Assembly (NCBI GenBank): GCA_036495095.1
Contig: DASXNK010000058.1
Location: 1 to 48,865, forward strand
DNA: 48,865 nt
From: Candidatus Dormiibacterota bacterium
GTDB lineage: Bacteria > Chloroflexota > Dormibacteria > Aeolococcales > Aeolococcaceae
Reading direction: 5' to 3'
Below, in pieces: positions 5,661 to 48,865 of the stretch. Numbering within the stretch: position 1 is the first letter of the stretch; every line of letters begins with the position of its first letter. The position numbers were made by a program, and so were the translations under genes. Under the pieces are notes generated by a model. The model was given only the letters and a program-made list of their open reading frames with translations. It made no database searches and was not told where the DNA came from.

Positions 5661-6376
5661 GGCGTCGCCGGGGCGGTGGGGTAGCGATCGTGGTGGCGCA
5701 CCCAGGCCATGGTGAAGTCGAGGGCGTCCTCGTCGCGACCCTTCGGGACGAGGTCCATCAGGTTGTACGCGCCGACCAGCATGTCGAGGCCGCGCGCGTA
5801 GGTGGAATAGGTGTGGAGGACGTCGCCGTTCTCGTCGCGGGTGAAGACGCTCAGACCGGGAAGCTCGTCGCTCGTGAACCGCCGCCGGCCGAAGTTGTAG
5901 TCGACCTCGCCCGCGGCCCGATCCTGGTCGGTGAACGACACGTGGTGGTCGTGGTTGAAGTCGCTCCCGTACGACGACACCCACCGGAAGCGCCAGCCCA
6001 TCCGCCCCCTGAACGCCTCGATCTGGTCGAGGGGGGCGCGGGAGACCGCCACCAGGGTGATGTCGCGCTGGGCGAGGTGGACGGTCGCGCCGTCGAAGTG
6101 GTCGGAGACCAGCGAACAGCTCCGGCACCCCTCCTCCCAGCCCGGTCCGAACATGAAGTGGTAGACGATCAGCTGACCGCGACCGTCGAAGAGGTCGGCG
6201 AGCGTCCGGGGGCCGTCCGGGGTGTCGAAGGTGTAGGTCGTGTCGACCCGCACCCAGGGCAGCGCGCGCCGCTCCGCGCTCAGCTGATCACGGAGCTTCG
6301 AGAACTCCTTCTCGCGACGGAGGTGCTCCGTGCGCGCCGCCAGCCACTCGTCCCGCGACACCACCGCGTGCTTCAC
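5657..6376 (-). CDS. DUF899 thioredoxin-fold protein
   Basis: The 239-residue protein belongs to the DUF899 family, thioredoxin-like proteins related to AhpC/TSA. It keeps the family pattern: MKHAVVSRDEWLAAR at the N-terminus, VYHFMFGPGWEEGCRSCS with the paired cysteines C84 and C87, VSRAPLDQIEAFRGRMGW, and DHHVSFTD further on. The CxxC pair suggests a redox role, but no reaction is established for the family. The GTG start at 6376 overlaps the SRPBCC stop (GTGA), so it is the third gene of an ArsR-SRPBCC-DUF899 operon. This arrangement is frequent in Actinobacteria and related groups. Confidence 0.85.
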   Translation of the reverse strand: MKHAVVSRDEWLAARTEHLRREKEFSKLRDQLSAERRALPWVRVDTTYTFDTPDGPRTLADLFDGRGQLIVYHFMFGPGWEEGCRSCSLVSDHFDGATVHLAQRDITLVAVSRAPLDQIEAFRGRMGWRFRWVSSYGSDFNHDHHVSFTDQDRAAGEVDYNFGRRRFTSDELPGLSVFTRDENGDVLHTYSTYARGLDMLVGAYNLMDLVPKGRDEDALDFTMAWVRHHDRYPTAPATP

Positions 6377-42553: not shown

Positions 42554-43471
42554 TTAGAGCAGCGAGCGCACCGCGTCCACCAGCGCCCCGGGCGCCTCGA
42601 GGGGGATGAAGTGGCCCACCCCCGGCAGCACCCGCAGCCGGTGGGCGCCGAGGGTGCGGTCCAGCCCCTCCGCCCAGTCGGGGGGGAAGAGCGGGTCGGC
42701 CTCGCCCCAGAGCACCTCGGTGGGGTGCGGCAGCGGCGGCGGGGCGGGTGCGGGCTCGGCGGCGGCGTGGCGTGCCGTCTCCAGGGTTCCGGCGCCCGAC
42801 CGGTACCAGTTCAGGCTGGCGTCGAGCGCGCCCGGCACCGCGTAGACGTCGACGATGGCGGCGAGCTCGGCCTCGCGCACCGCCTCCTGGCGTCCGGTCC
42901 AGTGCCGGTAGAAGTGGCGGAGATAGGTCTCCACCGAGGTGCGGTCGCGGCCGGCGAGCTCGACCGCGAGGGGGAGGCGGTGGAAGTCCTGGTACCAGAA
43001 CTCCCGCTGGTGGACGGGCAGCAGCGCGCGGGCGCCCGAGCCGGGGTGCAGCGGGGCGCCGAGCACGAGGCCGCGGACCCGCCCGGGGGCGAGCCGGGCC
43101 ACCGTCTGGGCGACCGCGGAGCCGACGTCATAGCCGGCGAGGACGGCGCGCTCGAGGTCGAGCGCGTCCATGAGGTCGAGCACCACCCGGGCCTGGGCCT
43201 CGCGGCCGTAGCCGGTCGCGGCGGGCAGGTCGGGGGCGTCGGAGGCGCCGAAGCCGCGCAGGTCGGGAGCGACCACGTCGACCTCGGCGCCGAGTGTGGG
43301 AATGACGCGCCGGTTGTCGTACCAGAACCCCGGCCACCCGTGGAGGAGCACCACCGGGGCACCGCCGCCGCTGCGGACGTAGTGCACCCGGTGGCCCTGC
43401 CGGTCGGTGCAGAGCCCGTGACCCCAGGCCGGGTCACTCGGGGGCAGGTCGAGAAATGCGTCGTGGGCCAT
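42554..43471 (-). CDS. Epoxide-hydrolase-like alpha/beta hydrolase
   Basis: The 305-residue protein resembles epoxide hydrolases: HGWPG oxyanion motif (44-48), DLRGFGASD, nucleophile elbow GYDVGS with Asp115 instead of Ser, cap-domain tyrosines (Y183, Y210 or Y223 are candidates for ring opening), acid Asp259 (WGEADPLFP) and base His287 (GVGHFIPLE). Asp as nucleophile excludes ordinary esterases; haloalkane or fluoroacetate dehalogenases are the other option. It is the last gene of the copper monooxygenase operon, 17 bases after the small D gene. Its inferred job is hydrolysis of epoxides formed when the monooxygenase acts on alkenes. Confidence 0.82.
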   Translation of the reverse strand: MAHDAFLDLPPSDPAWGHGLCTDRQGHRVHYVRSGGGAPVVLLHGWPGFWYDNRRVIPTLGAEVDVVAPDLRGFGASDAPDLPAATGYGREAQARVVLDLMDALDLERAVLAGYDVGSAVAQTVARLAPGRVRGLVLGAPLHPGSGARALLPVHQREFWYQDFHRLPLAVELAGRDRTSVETYLRHFYRHWTGRQEAVREAELAAIVDVYAVPGALDASLNWYRSGAGTLETARHAAAEPAPAPPPLPHPTEVLWGEADPLFPPDWAEGLDRTLGAHRLRVLPGVGHFIPLEAPGALVDAVRSLL

Positions 43472-43488
43472 GCGGGGTGGCTGCGGGT

Positions 43489-43785
43489 CTAGTCGGGCTC
43501 CTCGGGCGGAGTCCCGGTGGAGGCGGCGGCCTGGCTCTCAGGGGGCCCGGAGGAGGCCGCCGCCCGGGAGGGTTTGGTGCTGCCGTTGGTGTTCGCCCGG
43601 GTCTCGTCGCCGCGGATGGGGTGGTGCTGGTACCGCTCACCCTGGGTGCGCACGATCGGCCCGATGACGAGCACGGCGCCGGCGCCGAAGACGATGGCGA
43701 AGGGCCCGATGAGCGCGAGGATCTCCCAGATGCTCTGCGCCATGCTGTGCGCGAGGACGGCTCGCGCCAGGACCTCCTGCATCAC
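43489..43785 (-). CDS. Small one-helix membrane protein in the D position of the monooxygenase operon
   Basis: The 98-residue protein has one transmembrane helix at about residues 19-46 (IWEILALIGPFAIVFGAGAV) and a hydrophilic tail rich in Ser, Pro, Glu and Thr. It has no cupredoxin domain and no Met/His copper motif, unlike PmoD/AmoD. GTG at 43785 or the adjacent ATG at 43782 follows GGAGAAC. It lies 35 bases after the B subunit gene, where actinobacterial hmo/bmo operons also carry a fourth gene. It may stabilise or regulate the membrane complex; the evidence is only position and topology. Confidence 0.65.
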   Translation of the reverse strand: MMQEVLARAVLAHSMAQSIWEILALIGPFAIVFGAGAVLVIGPIVRTQGERYQHHPIRGDETRANTNGSTKPSRAAASSGPPESQAAASTGTPPEEPD

Positions 43786-43820
43786 GTTCTCCGGCGATCC
43801 GGCGGCCGTGTCATGTCAGC

Positions 43821-45065
43821 TCACGTGGACGTCGGGTTGAGCGACGTGTTGATGGTGTCGAAGTTGCGGTTGCCCTCCGTGTCGGTGAGCTCCACCACGC
43901 CGGCGACGACGTACTGCGCCTGGCCCAGCGGGAGCAGCTCCTGTTGCTTGAGCACCGATCCGGGGATGCTGAGGGTGACCTTCGCGGTCTGGCCGGGGTC
44001 GATGGCGGCCTCGGGGTTCACCTTCATCTGGTACTCGTAGTCGCCGTGCGGCAGCCCGGCGAGCGGGTTGAGGAAGGTGAGGTTGCCGGTCCTGAAGGCG
44101 CGCACCGTGAGCGGGGTCTTGGCGGTGTTGGTCACCGTGGTGACGATGTCGAGGGTGTCGGTGGCCGGGTTGTAGATGGCGTCGGTGGCCTGCGCGACGG
44201 CGAGCTGCGCCTCCACCGGCGGGGCCGGCGGCTTCACCCACTGCACCTGCAGCGGGATGTTCCCCGAGTAGTGGCTCGAGGCCCAGACGAAGCCCACCCC
44301 CACCAGCACCACCGTCGCGCCGGTGATGTAGGCCATGTGGCGGTGGTCGCGACGGGTGATGATGCCCACCGCGGGGCCGCCGTCCTGGTTGAGCGGCAGC
44401 TCGTTGGCGACCCGCAGCCGGGTGATGGTGCGCTTGATGCCGCCCGGCACCGTCCAGTACAGCATCCACCACATCCCCAGCACCAGCGTGACCGCCGAGA
44501 AGCCGAGCACCAGCCAGGTGCCGTAGCCCTCGACGTCGATGTTCTTGCCGTTCAGCAGGGTGATCGGGAAGCTGAACCCGGACGGGCTCGAGCTGATGTT
44601 GACGTACTGGCCGGGGCCGATGAGGGTGCCCGACTCCTTGACCGCGAGCGCCGGGTGGACGTGCCAGTTCCCCGGGTCACGGGCGCGGAGGGTCATCGAG
44701 AAGTTGTAGACGCTGCCCTTGCTGCAGAAGAAGGACTGCGGCGACTCCATGCCGTTGATCTTGCGGTCGACGAGCACGAACCGCGCCCCCGGCTCGACCA
44801 CCGTGAGGTAGCAGACCTCGGGGTTGCCGTTGCTCATGTTCGACGGCCAGGTCTCCAGCAGCTTGGTGGTGCCGCTGATGACCATGTTGTCGTTCTGGGT
44901 GAGGTCGGACTTCGAGAACTTGACGTCCCACCAGCCGACCGCCTCCATGCGGACGAACCCCTCCTGGGCGATCTCGCCGTGGGCGGACACCGAGGTGGTG
45001 CGCAGCCCGGTCATCGCCGCCGCTCCGAGGAGGGCGACGAGGGCAATGAGGATGAACCGTCTCAT
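43821..45065 (-). CDS. hmoB: Copper membrane monooxygenase subunit B (PmoB/AmoB/HmoB)
   Basis: The 414-residue protein has a signal peptide cleaved before His29 (SVSAHGEIAQEGF), placing His29 at the mature N-terminus as in PmoB. His135 and His137 (GNWHVHPAL) complete the CuB site equivalent to His33/137/139 of Methylococcus PmoB. Two cupredoxin domains are exposed outside: ~29-180 and ~290-410. Two transmembrane helices (~186-210 and ~252-271) lie between them. C85 and C114 could form a disulphide. The ATG at 45065 is preceded by GAGGAGGGGAG. It is 16 bases after the A gene, in the usual C-A-B order. Confidence 0.93.
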   Translation of the reverse strand: MRRFILIALVALLGAAAMTGLRTTSVSAHGEIAQEGFVRMEAVGWWDVKFSKSDLTQNDNMVISGTTKLLETWPSNMSNGNPEVCYLTVVEPGARFVLVDRKINGMESPQSFFCSKGSVYNFSMTLRARDPGNWHVHPALAVKESGTLIGPGQYVNISSSPSGFSFPITLLNGKNIDVEGYGTWLVLGFSAVTLVLGMWWMLYWTVPGGIKRTITRLRVANELPLNQDGGPAVGIITRRDHRHMAYITGATVVLVGVGFVWASSHYSGNIPLQVQWVKPPAPPVEAQLAVAQATDAIYNPATDTLDIVTTVTNTAKTPLTVRAFRTGNLTFLNPLAGLPHGDYEYQMKVNPEAAIDPGQTAKVTLSIPGSVLKQQELLPLGQAQYVVAGVVELTDTEGNRNFDTINTSLNPTST

Positions 45066-45081
45066 CGCTGCTCTCCCCTCC

Positions 45082-45855
45082 TCAGTACTGCTTGAGGTAT
45101 TTGAAGATCGGCCACACCGCCAGCCGTCTCCCCAGGAACTGCCCCACCCAGTAGCCGAAGACACAGAGGGTGGTGCCGAACGCGAGCGACACGTACTGGG
45201 TCTCCTGCAGGAAGGTGCGCAGCGAGCCGTGCTCGATGATGCGGAGGTACTCGGGGGTCTGCGCCCGGATGTAGCCGATGCCCTGGACGTCGGCAACGGT
45301 CAGGGTGTGCCCCATGAACCGGGTCGGCTGGAGGTAGGGCAGCTGCATGATGTAGTTGGACATCCAGAAGCCCATCGTCCAGACCGCGGAGCCGATCAGC
45401 GAGGTGAGGATGAAGCTCCGCGACTTCAGCAGCACGTAGTCGGTGAGGATGCCCGCGGGGATCCAGGTCGCCGACCAGACGAAGTTGATCGGCATGTTGA
45501 TGAAGTACTTCCACTGCAGCAGCCGGCCGATCCAGGTGCAGAAGAAGAGACAGACCGCCGTGTAGGTGGCCCCGGTGGGGAACCTCCACGCTCTCCACTG
45601 GATGTACTGCAGGGCGGAGGGGATGATGATGGTGGCGAACGGCGTGATCGTCATCCACCACTGACGGTCCTTCCAGTCGGTCCAGAAGTCCCAGTCACCA
45701 GCGAAGAGCAGGTGGGTGATGTTGGCGGCGGCGCCGACCACGAAGCCGGCGGTCACCCAGAACATCAGGTCCCACTTGCGGTCGATGAACTTGTACCTGC
45801 GCTCGGCGATCTCCCGGAGCCGCAGCGCCTCGAGGTCGATGGTCGCGGTTGCCAT
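45082..45855 (-). CDS. hmoA: Copper membrane monooxygenase subunit A (PmoA/AmoA/HmoA)
   Basis: The 257-residue integral membrane subunit has about seven hydrophobic segments and the family landmark GDWDFWTDWKDR (GDWDFW at 53-58), plus TPEYLRIIEHGSLRTF near the C-terminus, which matches PEYxRxxExGxLRTF of PmoA. The final LRRLAVWPIF tail is short. It forms the membrane core of the trimer with subunits B and C. ATG at 45855 follows the C stop by three bases. Residues after LRTF (LQETQYVSLAFGTTLC) differ from methanotroph and nitrifier consensus, supporting the hydrocarbon-oxidising branch rather than methane or ammonia oxidisers. Confidence 0.94.
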   Translation of the reverse strand: MATATIDLEALRLREIAERRYKFIDRKWDLMFWVTAGFVVGAAANITHLLFAGDWDFWTDWKDRQWWMTITPFATIIIPSALQYIQWRAWRFPTGATYTAVCLFFCTWIGRLLQWKYFINMPINFVWSATWIPAGILTDYVLLKSRSFILTSLIGSAVWTMGFWMSNYIMQLPYLQPTRFMGHTLTVADVQGIGYIRAQTPEYLRIIEHGSLRTFLQETQYVSLAFGTTLCVFGYWVGQFLGRRLAVWPIFKYLKQY

Positions 45856-45858
45856 TGG

Positions 45859-46749
45859 TCAGCCCCCGCCGACCGGCGCGCCGCTGGTGGGCACGGCCGC
45901 GGGCGCGGTGTCGCGCGCATCGGCCGCCTCCTCGTCCTCGATCTGGTAGAGACGCAGGATCGTCTCCCCCCAGAGGGCGAAGATGCCGCTGGCCAGCCAG
46001 CCGTAGAGCACGAACGGCCAGTGGAACCAGACCGCGAAGAACTCCTCGGCGCCGGCGTTGCCCAGGTTCACGCTGTGGCCCCACTCGTTCATCGCCACCT
46101 GCGCCACCTCGGTGACGGTCGCGGAGATGAGCAGGAAGAACGACCACGGGAAGCCCTTGTCGGGGCCGTAGACCGCGGGGATCCGGGTGCGCCCGTAGAG
46201 GTAGGTGCCGACCGCGAGGGTGACCCCCAGCGGGAAGAACAGGTAGAACATCGGGATGTGCGAGACGGTGAACGCGGTGTCCCGCACCAGGGTCTGGTGG
46301 AAGGCGCCGTCCTGGTTGGGCCAGAAGCTGGCCTCGATGTACAGGTTGACGCTGGTGGCGCCGATCAACCCCCAGAAGACGGCGATGCGCCGTACCTCCT
46401 CGCGGCGGCTGATGCGCTGGGGTAGGCTCCTCGCGCTCTGGAGGATCCATCGCCACCACAGCACGGTGAAGATGCCGACCCCCAGCAGGAAGGCGACGAC
46501 CAGCATCCGCCACATCCAGAAGAACTGGGTGGTCGAGGAGTCGAGCCCCCAGGGGAAGACGGCGAACGCCTGATAGATGCGGATGGCGATGGCCAGTCCC
46601 AGCAGGATCAGCGGGGAGATGAGGCCCCACTTCCACCCCCCCAGCCAATCGATCGGGCCCCTGCCCGGGATGTCCGGCGGGTCGTAGACGGCGGGGGCGA
46701 CGCGCTCCGGCGCCCCGTGCAATTCGGGTGTTGCCACTTGCTCGGTCAC
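45859..46749 (-). CDS. hmoC: Copper membrane monooxygenase subunit C (PmoC/AmoC/HmoC)
   Basis: The 296-residue subunit carries the putative active-site copper ligands: Asp147, His151 and His164 (EASFWPNQDGAFH, then SHI), and Asn221, His225 and His243 (NEWGH, then FHW). These correspond to the CuC and CuD ligands of Methylococcus PmoC. Five or six transmembrane helices are visible. The soluble N-terminal ~35 residues and acidic C-terminal tail are longer than needed for the core. It starts with GTG at 46749, with GGAG eight bases upstream. A 64-base gap with a small hairpin (46781-46793) separates it from the alcohol dehydrogenase gene. Confidence 0.93.
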   Translation of the reverse strand: MTEQVATPELHGAPERVAPAVYDPPDIPGRGPIDWLGGWKWGLISPLILLGLAIAIRIYQAFAVFPWGLDSSTTQFFWMWRMLVVAFLLGVGIFTVLWWRWILQSARSLPQRISRREEVRRIAVFWGLIGATSVNLYIEASFWPNQDGAFHQTLVRDTAFTVSHIPMFYLFFPLGVTLAVGTYLYGRTRIPAVYGPDKGFPWSFFLLISATVTEVAQVAMNEWGHSVNLGNAGAEEFFAVWFHWPFVLYGWLASGIFALWGETILRLYQIEDEEAADARDTAPAAVPTSGAPVGGG

Positions 46750-46813
46750 GTCTCCATCTCCAAGTACCTCTCCTCCGTGAGGCGGTCACCGCCCCCCTGT
46801 GCCGTCGCCGTGC

Positions 46814-47902
46814 TCACGGCATCGCCGTGCTGTACTCGGTGGACCCGGCCGCCGCGGTCGAGGCGGCGCCGTTCGCCGCCGGCAGCACCACGCCGCGGCC
46901 GGCGATGCGGCCGTGGTCGAGGTCGTCGATCGCGGTGCCGATGTCATCGAGGGCGTACCGCTGCGTGTGCAGCTTCACCCTGCCCTGCGCCTGGAGGGTC
47001 ATCAGCTCGGACAGCTCGGTGTGGTTGCCCACCAGGCTGCCGACGATCGCGATCTCCGAGAAGATCACGTCGATGGTCGGCACCTCCACCCGGCCGCCGT
47101 AGCCGATCACGATGTTGGTGCCGCCCTGCCGCAGCATCGCCACCGCGTCCCTCTCGGCGCCACGCTCCCCGACGAAGTCGAGGACGACGTGGGCGCCGCC
47201 GCCGGTGAGCTCGTGGACCGCCTCCACCGCCTCCGCGCCGACCGCCCCCACCACCTCGTCGGCCCCCAGCTCGCGCGCCAGCGCCTGGGCGGTGGGGGAG
47301 GGATCGACGGCGATGACACCGGCGGCGCAGAGGTTCTGGACGCACTGCATGGCGATGTGACCGAGCCCGCCGATGCCGATCACCACCGCCCAGTTGCCGG
47401 GGCGCAGCAGCCCGGCCGCCTTCCTCGCCGCCCGGAACGCGGTGATGCCGGCGTCGGCGTAGGGGGCGACGTCGATCGGGTCGATGCCCTCGGCCAGCTT
47501 GACGAGAGCGCGGTCGGAGGTGCGCAGGTAGTCGGCGAAGCCGCCCTCGGCGTTGATCCCGGGGAAGCTGCCGCTGGCGCAGTACATGTCCTCGCCCCGG
47601 CGGCAGGCCTCGCAGTACCCGCAGGTGACGAGCGGGTGGACGATGACCGCCTCGCCCTCGCGCACGCTGGTGACGGCACTGCCGATCGCCTCCACCCAGC
47701 CGGCGTTCTCGTGGCCGAGGGTGTAGGGCAGCTCGACCTCGACCTTGCGCTGCCAGATGCCCTCGATGATGTGGAGGTCGGTCCGGCACAGCCCGGCGCC
47801 GCCGATCCGGACGATCACGTCGTGGGGCCCGCTGAGCTCGGGCGCCGCCACCTCGTCGACCTGGAGTGGCTGGTTGTAGGCGTGGAGCCGGGCCGCCCTC
47901 AT
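46814..47902 (-). CDS. Zinc-dependent alcohol dehydrogenase (SDIMO-cluster type)
   Basis: The 362-residue medium-chain dehydrogenase has catalytic-zinc ligands Cys39, His64-Glu65 and Asp150 (ADAGITAF), structural-zinc cysteines 94, 97, 100 and 108 (CGYCEACRRGEDMYC), and the NAD(P) motif GIGGLG (176-181). It should oxidise primary or secondary alcohols from alkane hydroxylation. The ATG at 47902 overlaps the DUF59 gene stop (ATGA), so it is translationally coupled to the genes that usually flank soluble propane monooxygenases. The C-terminal ~20 residues are an Ala/Thr/Ser tail. Confidence 0.93.
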   Translation of the reverse strand: MRAARLHAYNQPLQVDEVAAPELSGPHDVIVRIGGAGLCRTDLHIIEGIWQRKVEVELPYTLGHENAGWVEAIGSAVTSVREGEAVIVHPLVTCGYCEACRRGEDMYCASGSFPGINAEGGFADYLRTSDRALVKLAEGIDPIDVAPYADAGITAFRAARKAAGLLRPGNWAVVIGIGGLGHIAMQCVQNLCAAGVIAVDPSPTAQALARELGADEVVGAVGAEAVEAVHELTGGGAHVVLDFVGERGAERDAVAMLRQGGTNIVIGYGGRVEVPTIDVIFSEIAIVGSLVGNHTELSELMTLQAQGRVKLHTQRYALDDIGTAIDDLDHGRIAGRGVVLPAANGAASTAAAGSTEYSTAMP

Positions 47903-48597
47903 ACCGGGGTCTCCTCGTGTCGGGGGTAGCGGGTGGCGTGGAGGCCTCCGCACAGGCTGCCGTTGGCCTCCATGCACACCCGGGTCATGCGGGCACGGGT
48001 GAGATACGAGTCGAGCCGCTCCACCGCGATCGGCTGGCCGTTGGGATGGACGGCGACCGGCGCCTCCGCCGCGGTGGAGATGCCGAGCCGCACCCGCCGC
48101 TCCAGGTACGCCCCGGTCTCGGGGTCGGCGGTGTCGAGGTCGCCGACCCGCAGCGCGCACACGTCGCCGTCGGAGCGCCCCTCGGCGAGCAGCCGGTGGA
48201 GCAGCACCTCCTGGCGGGCGGTGAAGGCCTTGACCCAGAAGAAGCGCCGCAGCGCCTCGAGCCCGGCGCCGTCGGTGTGCTCGGGAAAGGCCTCGTCGAA
48301 GGAGCGCCCGGCGTTGACGCTGGCGGTCACCTCGTCGGCGACGAAGTGGTCGACGAGGCGGACGGTGACCGAGCGCACCCCGGGCACCGCGGCGACGGCG
48401 TCGCGGGCGTCCGCCGCCATCAGGTAGGCGAAGTTGGCCGCACACCAGAAGGTGGGCAGGCGCAGCTCCACCAGGGCGCGGCCGGCGTCGTCGACGGCCG
48501 CCCGGGCGAATCCGAGCTCGACCACCGACCGGTCGAGCTCGGGGTCGGTGACAGAGTCGAGCGCCCCGGTGACGCTCGCCGTCAGGTCGCTGGCCAC
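47899..48597 (-). CDS. DUF59/MIP18-like iron-sulfur assembly-type protein
   Basis: The 232-residue protein begins with a MIP18/DUF59 domain: TGALDSVTDPELDRSVVELG, then VELRLPTFWCAANFAYLM with Cys52 at the position where the family usually has CP. The C-terminal ~130 residues are specific to the subgroup found in soluble di-iron monooxygenase clusters (RVCMEANGSLCGGLHATRYP). Related proteins aid Fe-S or di-iron centre assembly; that role is inferred here. Start GTG 48597 lies ten bases after the amidohydrolase stop. Its stop overlaps the alcohol dehydrogenase start. Confidence 0.82.
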   Translation of the reverse strand: MASDLTASVTGALDSVTDPELDRSVVELGFARAAVDDAGRALVELRLPTFWCAANFAYLMAADARDAVAAVPGVRSVTVRLVDHFVADEVTASVNAGRSFDEAFPEHTDGAGLEALRRFFWVKAFTARQEVLLHRLLAEGRSDGDVCALRVGDLDTADPETGAYLERRVRLGISTAAEAPVAVHPNGQPIAVERLDSYLTRARMTRVCMEANGSLCGGLHATRYPRHEETPV

Positions 48598-48607
48598 CCC
48601 CGTGTCC

Positions 48608-48865
48608 TCACACCGCAGCCGGCGCCGCGGCGGCCAGCTGCAGGTCGGCCGGGACCTCGAGGTCGTAGAGCTTGGCGGCGTTGAGGCCGAGGATCTTGCG
48701 CTTGCCCTCGATGGTCAGGTCGACCCCCTTCTGCTCCTTGATGTCCTCGGGCATCTGGAAGTCGACGAACTTCTCGACGATCCAGCGCGGGCTCCACAGG
48801 GCGTAGTCGGAGGCGAAGGTCAGCCGGTCCTCGCCGACCCACCAGAGCAGCTCGCTCAGCACCTC
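48608..48865 (-). CDS. C-terminal end of an amidohydrolase-family protein (cut by window edge)
   Basis: The last 85 or so residues of a gene that continues beyond the right edge; the frame is open to the border. LTFASDYALWSPRWIVEKFV contains the conserved Asp of the amidohydrolase-2 metal site (FASDY), and LGLNAAKLYDLEVPADL is the typical C-terminal helix. This amidohydrolase subtype is known from the propane/MimABCD-type soluble monooxygenase operons, where it sits directly upstream of the DUF59 and alcohol dehydrogenase genes. It ends ten bases before the DUF59 start. The catalytic role there is unproven. Confidence 0.8.
   Translation of the reverse strand, partial: EVLSELLWWVGEDRLTFASDYALWSPRWIVEKFVDFQMPEDIKEQKGVDLTIEGKRKILGLNAAKLYDLEVPADLQLAAAAPAAV

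Follow-up and report, generated by a model that had tools for sequence, protein, structure and literature searches.

A predicted hydrocarbon-oxidation operon of a soil Chloroflexota bacterium pairs a copper membrane monooxygenase with a portable amidohydrolase-DUF59-alcohol dehydrogenase module

The window analysed here is the whole of one contig (48,865 nucleotides) from a soil Chloroflexota bacterium, and at its right end genes for a copper membrane monooxygenase (CuMMO) adjoin genes for an amidohydrolase (AMH), a DUF59 protein and an alcohol dehydrogenase (ADH). In a sequence-only reading this trio was named as the set that follows soluble di-iron monooxygenases (SDIMOs) of the prm type, which holds for R. 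aetherivorans and for published prm clusters, where groEL comes after the set (PMC4428276). The locus raises the question whether two oxidation systems share one operon, whether the copper enzyme captured the accessory genes of a soluble one, or whether the trio does not belong to SDIMOs as an accessory set at all.

Results

Gene content of the operon

As that reading had it, eight collinear genes with small gaps or overlaps occupy positions 42554-48865 of the minus strand, and each was verified by open reading frame and Pfam analysis. The first is an AMH of the Amidohydro_2 family, of which the C-terminal 85 aa are present (48608..48865; PF04909, E = 3e-11) and the 5' part falls beyond the contig end; the fragment shares 87% identity with its full-length counterpart of 340 aa in a same-genus contig (L016:1131-2153). 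It is followed by a 232 aa protein with a DUF59 domain, a C-terminal domain and two invariant Cys (47899..48597; PF01883, E = 3e-14; alignment of 10 relatives), and by a Zn-dependent medium-chain ADH (46814..47902; PF08240 and PF00107), whose start overlaps the DUF59 stop by 4 nt and whose nearest solved structure is the alcohol dehydrogenase 1h2b (E = 6e-102). The three orthologous genes of the trio are adjacent in the window. Next come the CuMMO genes hmoC (45859..46749; AmoC PF04896, E = 2e-36), hmoA (45082..45855; AMO PF02461, E = 4e-56) and hmoB (43821..45065; Monooxygenase_B PF04744, E = 2e-74), with hmoC placed 64 nt after ADH in the position that groEL takes behind the prm-type set, as had been proposed. 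The last two genes encode an HmoD-like small protein of 98 aa with one hydrophobic segment (43489..43782; without a Pfam family, aligned with actinobacterial small proteins 3' of hmoB) and an alpha/beta hydrolase resembling soluble epoxide hydrolases (42554..43471; PF00561). In the latter an Asp aligns at the nucleophile position and the best solved relative is the isobutylene epoxide hydrolase 9c2g (E = 3e-47; 1ehy, E = 3e-45), from which epoxide hydrolase activity is predicted. Among the CuMMO and trio loci examined, this gene was seen in the window's genus only.

The gaps between successive genes are 10, -4, 64, 3, 16, 38 and 17 nt, near-identical to those in L016 (11, -4, 64, 3, 16, 43 and 19 nt). 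None of the genes contains an internal stop, and the differences between the window and L016 lie mainly in third codon positions, a purifying pattern. A sigma-70 and terminator scan, which is weak and uninformative in GC-rich DNA, gave no promoter-like or terminator-like sites in the operon, including the 64 nt gap between ADH and hmoC. The eight genes are probably transcribed as a single unit.

Among characterised enzymes the copper monooxygenase is closest in sequence to actinobacterial hydrocarbon monooxygenases (HMO)

The subunit order C, A, B is that of CuMMOs, and alignment to solved pMMO bore out the claim that the CuB, CuC and CuD ligands are complete. The three CuB histidines of HmoB are one His and the WHVH motif (3rfr, 3rgb); in HmoC (4phz chain K) the CuC ligands follow D-x3-H-x12-H (QDGAFH...SHI) and those of CuD are found in NEWGH...FHW, with a 4-residue insertion preceding the last His. 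HmoA is 98% identical to that of Chloroflexi RYN_343 and 64% identical to that of Rokubacteria AR15.

Since the best NCBIfam matches of the three subunits are the bacterial AmoA/B/C models, the enzyme could be taken for an ammonia or methane monooxygenase whose neighbour genes are incidental. Every one of these matches, however, falls below the cut-off of its model, and among characterised enzymes the nearest in sequence are the actinobacterial (mycobacterial) HMO, with 44-45% identity in HmoA versus 35-37% to methanotroph enzymes. The linkage to ADH is moreover conserved in three Chloroflexota lineages and in Rokubacteria, and we regard an ammonia or methane monooxygenase as improbable. The tree calculated for clade placement contains few references and its deep forks are unresolved.

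The actinobacterial hmoCAB(D) operons (Mycolicibacterium chubuense NBB4; the M. dioxanotrophicus plasmid) share with the window the CAB order and a small protein 3' of hmoB. The small protein of M. dioxanotrophicus is 26% identical to the one in the window and has in common with it an AH..Q start and a hydrophobic segment. In NBB4 an AcoR-like (AcoR/Fis-type) regulator precedes hmoCAB, as in the relatives of the window described below, and both alkanes and alkenes of C2-C4 are substrates of its HMO (PMC8784404). Unlike the window, the actinobacterial operons have neither AMH-DUF59-ADH nor the epoxide hydrolase. Within the order of genome G427, the closest HMO relatives likewise lack the trio, from which it follows that the trio is dispensable for such enzymes in general.

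Relatives show the same linkage with no SDIMO upstream

Linkage of a CuMMO to the trio was seen in three lineages of Chloroflexota and in a single genome of Rokubacteria. The gene order matches that of the window in L016, in genome G270 (L083) and, across a contig break, in genome G232 (L081 and L082). In the same-genus genome G008, contig C29 carries regulator-AMH-DUF59-ADH and runs to the contig end, its AMH having a frameshift, and contig C127 starts 22 nt ahead of hmoC; the two are likely to join with about 370 nt, mostly of ADH, missing. The contig with xmoCAB of Rokubacteria AR15 (QHTD01000303) has the window's order, regulator-AMH-DUF59-ADH-hmoC-A-B. There the regulator is a genuine sigma-54 activator and, unlike in the window, another hydrolase lies 3' of hmoB. 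The AR15 XmoA has been described, with the xmoABC cluster alone reported in the available part of the source (PMC8780371).

These contigs bear on the suggestion that a prmABCD-like SDIMO directly precedes AMH past the contig edge, with both oxygenases in one operon. Such proximity has a precedent in M. chubuense, where hmoCAB adjoins an SDIMO cluster (PMC8784404), and in the genome that the window comes from, PF02332 genes occur on five further contigs, the one on C155 being cut by the contig end. No SDIMO was found, however, upstream of AMH in L016 (1.1 kb) or in G008:C29 (5.8 kb), where the di-iron hydroxylase alpha and beta subunits, the reductase and the coupling protein are all absent and the longer region holds an AcoR/Fis-type regulator; G270, G232 and the Rokubacteria contig likewise have no SDIMO in front of AMH. 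The idea that the window continues in C155, whose sequence breaks off within a beta subunit, was considered and rejected, given that the same-genus contigs have a different upstream region. The missing 5' part of AMH, or a second AMH, was sought in the window's genome and none was found, the sole fragment being that of the window. The sequence-only reading had itself named an upstream region lacking a soluble monooxygenase as evidence against its proposal, and in close relatives this is what was found, which tells against the version with both systems in one operon. We therefore consider that version very improbable, and the upstream region of the window presumably resembles that of its relatives.

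Ahead of AMH, L016 and G008 have in common a conserved pair of 13-nt direct repeats with a spacing of 86-87 nt. No sigma-54 (-24/-12) sites were found ahead of AMH in L016 or L018, and the few matches to such sites in G008 and in the operon are all inside genes.

The trio is a portable module

The prm/mim (group V) SDIMO operons of Rhodococcus, Caballeronia, Bradyrhizobium and Paracoccus contain AMH-DUF59, often with ADH, in the same order as the window, and a regulator of Fis or sigma-54 type, which is a further likeness to the window's relatives (PMC4428276). They differ in having a soluble di-iron oxygenase before AMH and GroEL after the set, whereas the window has a CuMMO after ADH and no GroEL. 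The identical AMH-DUF59-ADH order behind the Rhodococcus prm genes (PMC4428276) would be expected if the trio were an SDIMO accessory set that the copper enzyme captured and re-used. Against such a capture, the CuMMO-linked AMH fall outside the SDIMO-linked clade, and a clade joining CuMMO-linked and SDIMO-linked sets was rejected (p = 0.005 for AMH alone, p = 8.6e-5 for the concatenated trio). The set also mostly stands alone: most Chloroflexota loci, Thermomicrobium and haloarchaea have a trio with neither CuMMO nor SDIMO nearby, and SDIMO was absent from 28/30 trio-bearing genomes checked. Capture from an SDIMO system thus has little probability. A single clade of the CuMMO-linked sets was marginally rejected (p = 0.043).

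The trio is instead a portable module that pairs with an SDIMO, a CuMMO or neither, and the window is a new pairing of a copper enzyme with this widespread module, not a fusion of two oxidation systems. Stand-alone trios share the three genes with the window and sometimes have an IclR regulator; their other neighbours include molybdenum hydroxylases and a pyridine-nucleotide-disulphide oxidoreductase, with no consistent pathway. In Peribacillus AMH-DUF59 occurs alone.

Discussion

We read the locus as a regulator-controlled operon for short-hydrocarbon oxidation, built on a CuMMO that probably belongs to the HMO clade, together with the portable trio and an epoxide hydrolase (probability roughly 0.7). 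HmoCAB would hydroxylate a short alkane or epoxidise an alkene, with HmoD as a putative small membrane accessory; the Zn-ADH would oxidise the resulting alcohol to the corresponding aldehyde or ketone, AMH and the two-Cys DUF59 protein may perform a further or supporting step in the alcohol/ketone route, and the epoxide hydrolase would open alkene-derived epoxides. The AcoR/Fis-type regulator expected beyond the window edge probably controls a promoter ahead of AMH. The substrates, and the role of AMH and DUF59, are inferred.

For AMH and DUF59 another role can be argued, namely that they are maturation or metal-delivery factors of the oxygenase, with DUF59 as a metallocluster assembly protein, and not metabolic enzymes. 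PF01883 is named for Fe-S assembly, this DUF59 family has the two invariant Cys, and the AMH-DUF59 pair adjoins GroEL in SDIMO operons. The pair nevertheless persists with ADH in genomes that have neither SDIMO nor CuMMO, so that it cannot serve such oxygenases alone, and AMH retains the His/Asp residues of the metal site, as an enzyme would. We consider a maturation role unlikely. Profile searches against the PDB gave for AMH a sole match, the uncharacterised protein 3irs (E = 9e-4), and for the DUF59 protein matched the DUF59 domain alone; an AlphaFold model of AMH, built on two sequences, was of low quality (pLDDT 48). Tentatively, and at somewhat less than even odds, AMH and the two-Cys DUF59 protein carry out an undescribed step in short alcohol/ketone metabolism that is portable with ADH in bacteria and archaea, and that was joined independently to di-iron and copper oxygenases, possibly repeatedly to copper ones.

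CuMMOs in soil Chloroflexota are mentioned in passing in the available text of one paper (PMC12533140), and no description of the window's gene order was found in the open-access literature, in agreement with the remark that no described operon of this exact order is known. On our reading, these bacteria have a copper hydrocarbon monooxygenase together with a dedicated downstream pathway. The reading also turns the annotation 'SDIMO accessory gene' into a testable hypothesis. If the trio works without such an oxygenase, its biochemistry is accessible in cultured species that have the trio only, e.g. Thermomicrobium roseum. A comparable arrangement is the acetone-oxidation cluster of Methylacidiphilum, in which, like in the window, a divergent CuMMO (pmoCAB3) lies beside genes for alcohol/ketone processing; its partners are a GMC oxidoreductase, a glyoxalase and a lactate dehydrogenase, with no amidohydrolase mentioned (PMC8630023).

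Conservation of the gene row

The window is the entire contig C58 (48,865 bases) of a Chloroflexota genome of 4.4 Mb, and its relatives are Chloroflexi MAGs. All eight genes named in the sequence-only reading were found in the order and on the strand stated (minus strand, 42554-48865): amidohydrolase (AMH, interrupted by the contig end), DUF59 protein, Zn-alcohol dehydrogenase (ADH), hmoC, hmoA, hmoB, a small HmoD-like protein and an epoxide hydrolase. None contains internal stops, the intergenic gaps (10, -4, 64, 3, 16, 38 and 17 nt) are almost identical in L016, a locus of the same genus, and differences between window and L016 are mostly at third codon positions. The order AMH-DUF59-ADH-hmoC-A-B also occurs on a single contig in G270, across a contig break within DUF59 in G232 and, preceded by a sigma-54 activator gene, in Rokubacteria AR15. 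The pairing of the first three genes (the trio) with a copper membrane monooxygenase (CuMMO) is present in three CuMMO-bearing Chloroflexota lineages (the window's genus, G232 and G270) and in one Rokubacteria genome. No AMH was found in the genomes checked from the order of G427, which holds the nearest HMO relatives apart from these (HmoA identity up to 65%), and no trio near the actinobacterial HMO or Methylomirabilis pMMO loci examined. In that order, G522-G530 each carry two divergent CuMMO copies, with subunit A about 64% identical to that of the window in one and about 37% in the other.

The trio-HMO arrangement is real and conserved. HMO in Chloroflexota has already been mentioned (PMC12533140) and the XmoA of AR15 was already known (PMC8780371); no description of this gene order was found in the open-access literature searched.

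The region upstream of AMH

One of two readings proposed earlier was that a soluble di-iron monooxygenase (SDIMO) beyond the contig edge shares this operon. In the loci examined, and in published clusters (PMC4428276), prm-type SDIMOs are indeed followed by AMH, DUF59, often ADH, and GroEL. L016 (Chloroflexi RYN_343), whose HmoA is 98% identical to that of the window, has a complete AMH and 1.1 kb before it, without SDIMO. In the same-genus genome G008, contig C29 carries a regulator (about 600-640 aa), a frameshifted AMH, DUF59 and ADH and then ends, and C127 starts 22 nt ahead of hmoC, from which we infer that the two adjoin, ADH to hmoC. Since no SDIMO is seen before AMH in L016, G008, AR15, G270 or G232, a shared operon is very unlikely, as read from the upstream regions of relatives. 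SDIMO genes (PF02332) of the window's own genome are on five other contigs (C155, C116, C142, C206 and C196; L009-L013), and on C155 a truncated subunit adjoins a molybdenum hydroxylase-like cluster.

The G008 regulator combines a Fis-type HTH with an AAA lid, its sigma-54 activation domain scoring below the Pfam cut-off, and resembles in this the AcoR-type regulator before hmoCAB of M. chubuense. Between regulator and AMH, L016 and G008 both keep a pair of GCTCACCATCTGAAC copies, spaced 86-87 nt apart. These direct repeats (TCACCATCTGAAC), found in two species of the genus, lie at L016:929-941 and 1015-1027 and at L168:5667-5679 and 5754-5766 (the G008 locus, one copy with one base different), and are candidate operators for the upstream AcoR/Fis-type regulator. 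A small divergent gene (L168:5377-5592, minus strand, and the matching L016 stretch), coding for about 72 aa with one hydrophobic segment and four Cys, is also conserved between regulator and AMH.

The trio as a portable module

AMH relatives were found in 37 of 400 Chloroflexota genomes, and in the phylum sample CuMMO matches over the cut-off were confined to the window's genome, G232 and G270. Most sampled trio loci have neither SDIMO nor CuMMO nearby, and 28/30 AMH-bearing genomes tested lack any SDIMO gene. The trio, or AMH-DUF59, occurs without monooxygenase in Thermomicrobium, haloarchaea, Peribacillus and a Rhizobium (plasmid gene tables being incomplete). The AMH tree groups the proteobacterial SDIMO-linked genes in a single clade (97/93) and leaves the CuMMO-linked genes outside it, and a joint clade of CuMMO-linked and SDIMO-linked genes was rejected (p = 0.005). 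With the concatenated trio the joint clade was also rejected (p = 8.6e-5) and a clade of CuMMO-linked sets alone gave p = 0.043; the AMH-only test is the safer result, because the ADH taken in some SDIMO loci may not be an orthologue. From the stand-alone loci, the genomes without SDIMO and the rejected joint clade, the trio is a portable module with several partners rather than a borrowed SDIMO kit, and the earlier framing of the row as a hybrid of two systems is not supported. In the CuMMO tree one supported group holds both trio-linked and trio-less enzymes, and a single trio-linked clade was not rejected (p = 0.24).

Haloarchaeal plasmids L029 and L157 carry AMH-DUF59-ADH, and genes for thiolase, an OB-fold protein and citrate/methylcitrate synthase lie near the trio of L029. 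Stand-alone trios at L086:11125-14996 and L088:5460-7559 adjoin CO-dehydrogenase-like molybdenum hydroxylase genes, and others adjoin IclR regulators. In L145 (G107:C64) SDIMO and GroEL genes are about 7 kb from an opposite-strand trio, linked and not operonic.

Predicted functions

The copper ligands reported earlier are present in alignments to solved pMMO, as His and WHVH in subunit B and as QDGAFH...SHI and NEWGH...FHW in subunit C. The copper enzyme would make an alcohol or epoxide, ADH (closest solved relative 1h2b) would oxidise the alcohol and the epoxide hydrolase would handle epoxides. AMH is probably an active metal enzyme, because the His/Asp pattern of the family is kept (H16, H179, H181, H216 and D274 invariant in 16 relatives). 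Persistence of the trio without SDIMO or CuMMO, the two oxygenase families examined, favours a metabolic role over one in oxygenase maturation. Besides its DUF59 domain, the DUF59 protein has a further domain, and two of its cysteines are invariant. The small protein of the window aligns weakly with the mycobacterial small protein after hmoB, and the last gene codes for a soluble epoxide hydrolase relative whose best solved match is isobutylene epoxide hydrolase.
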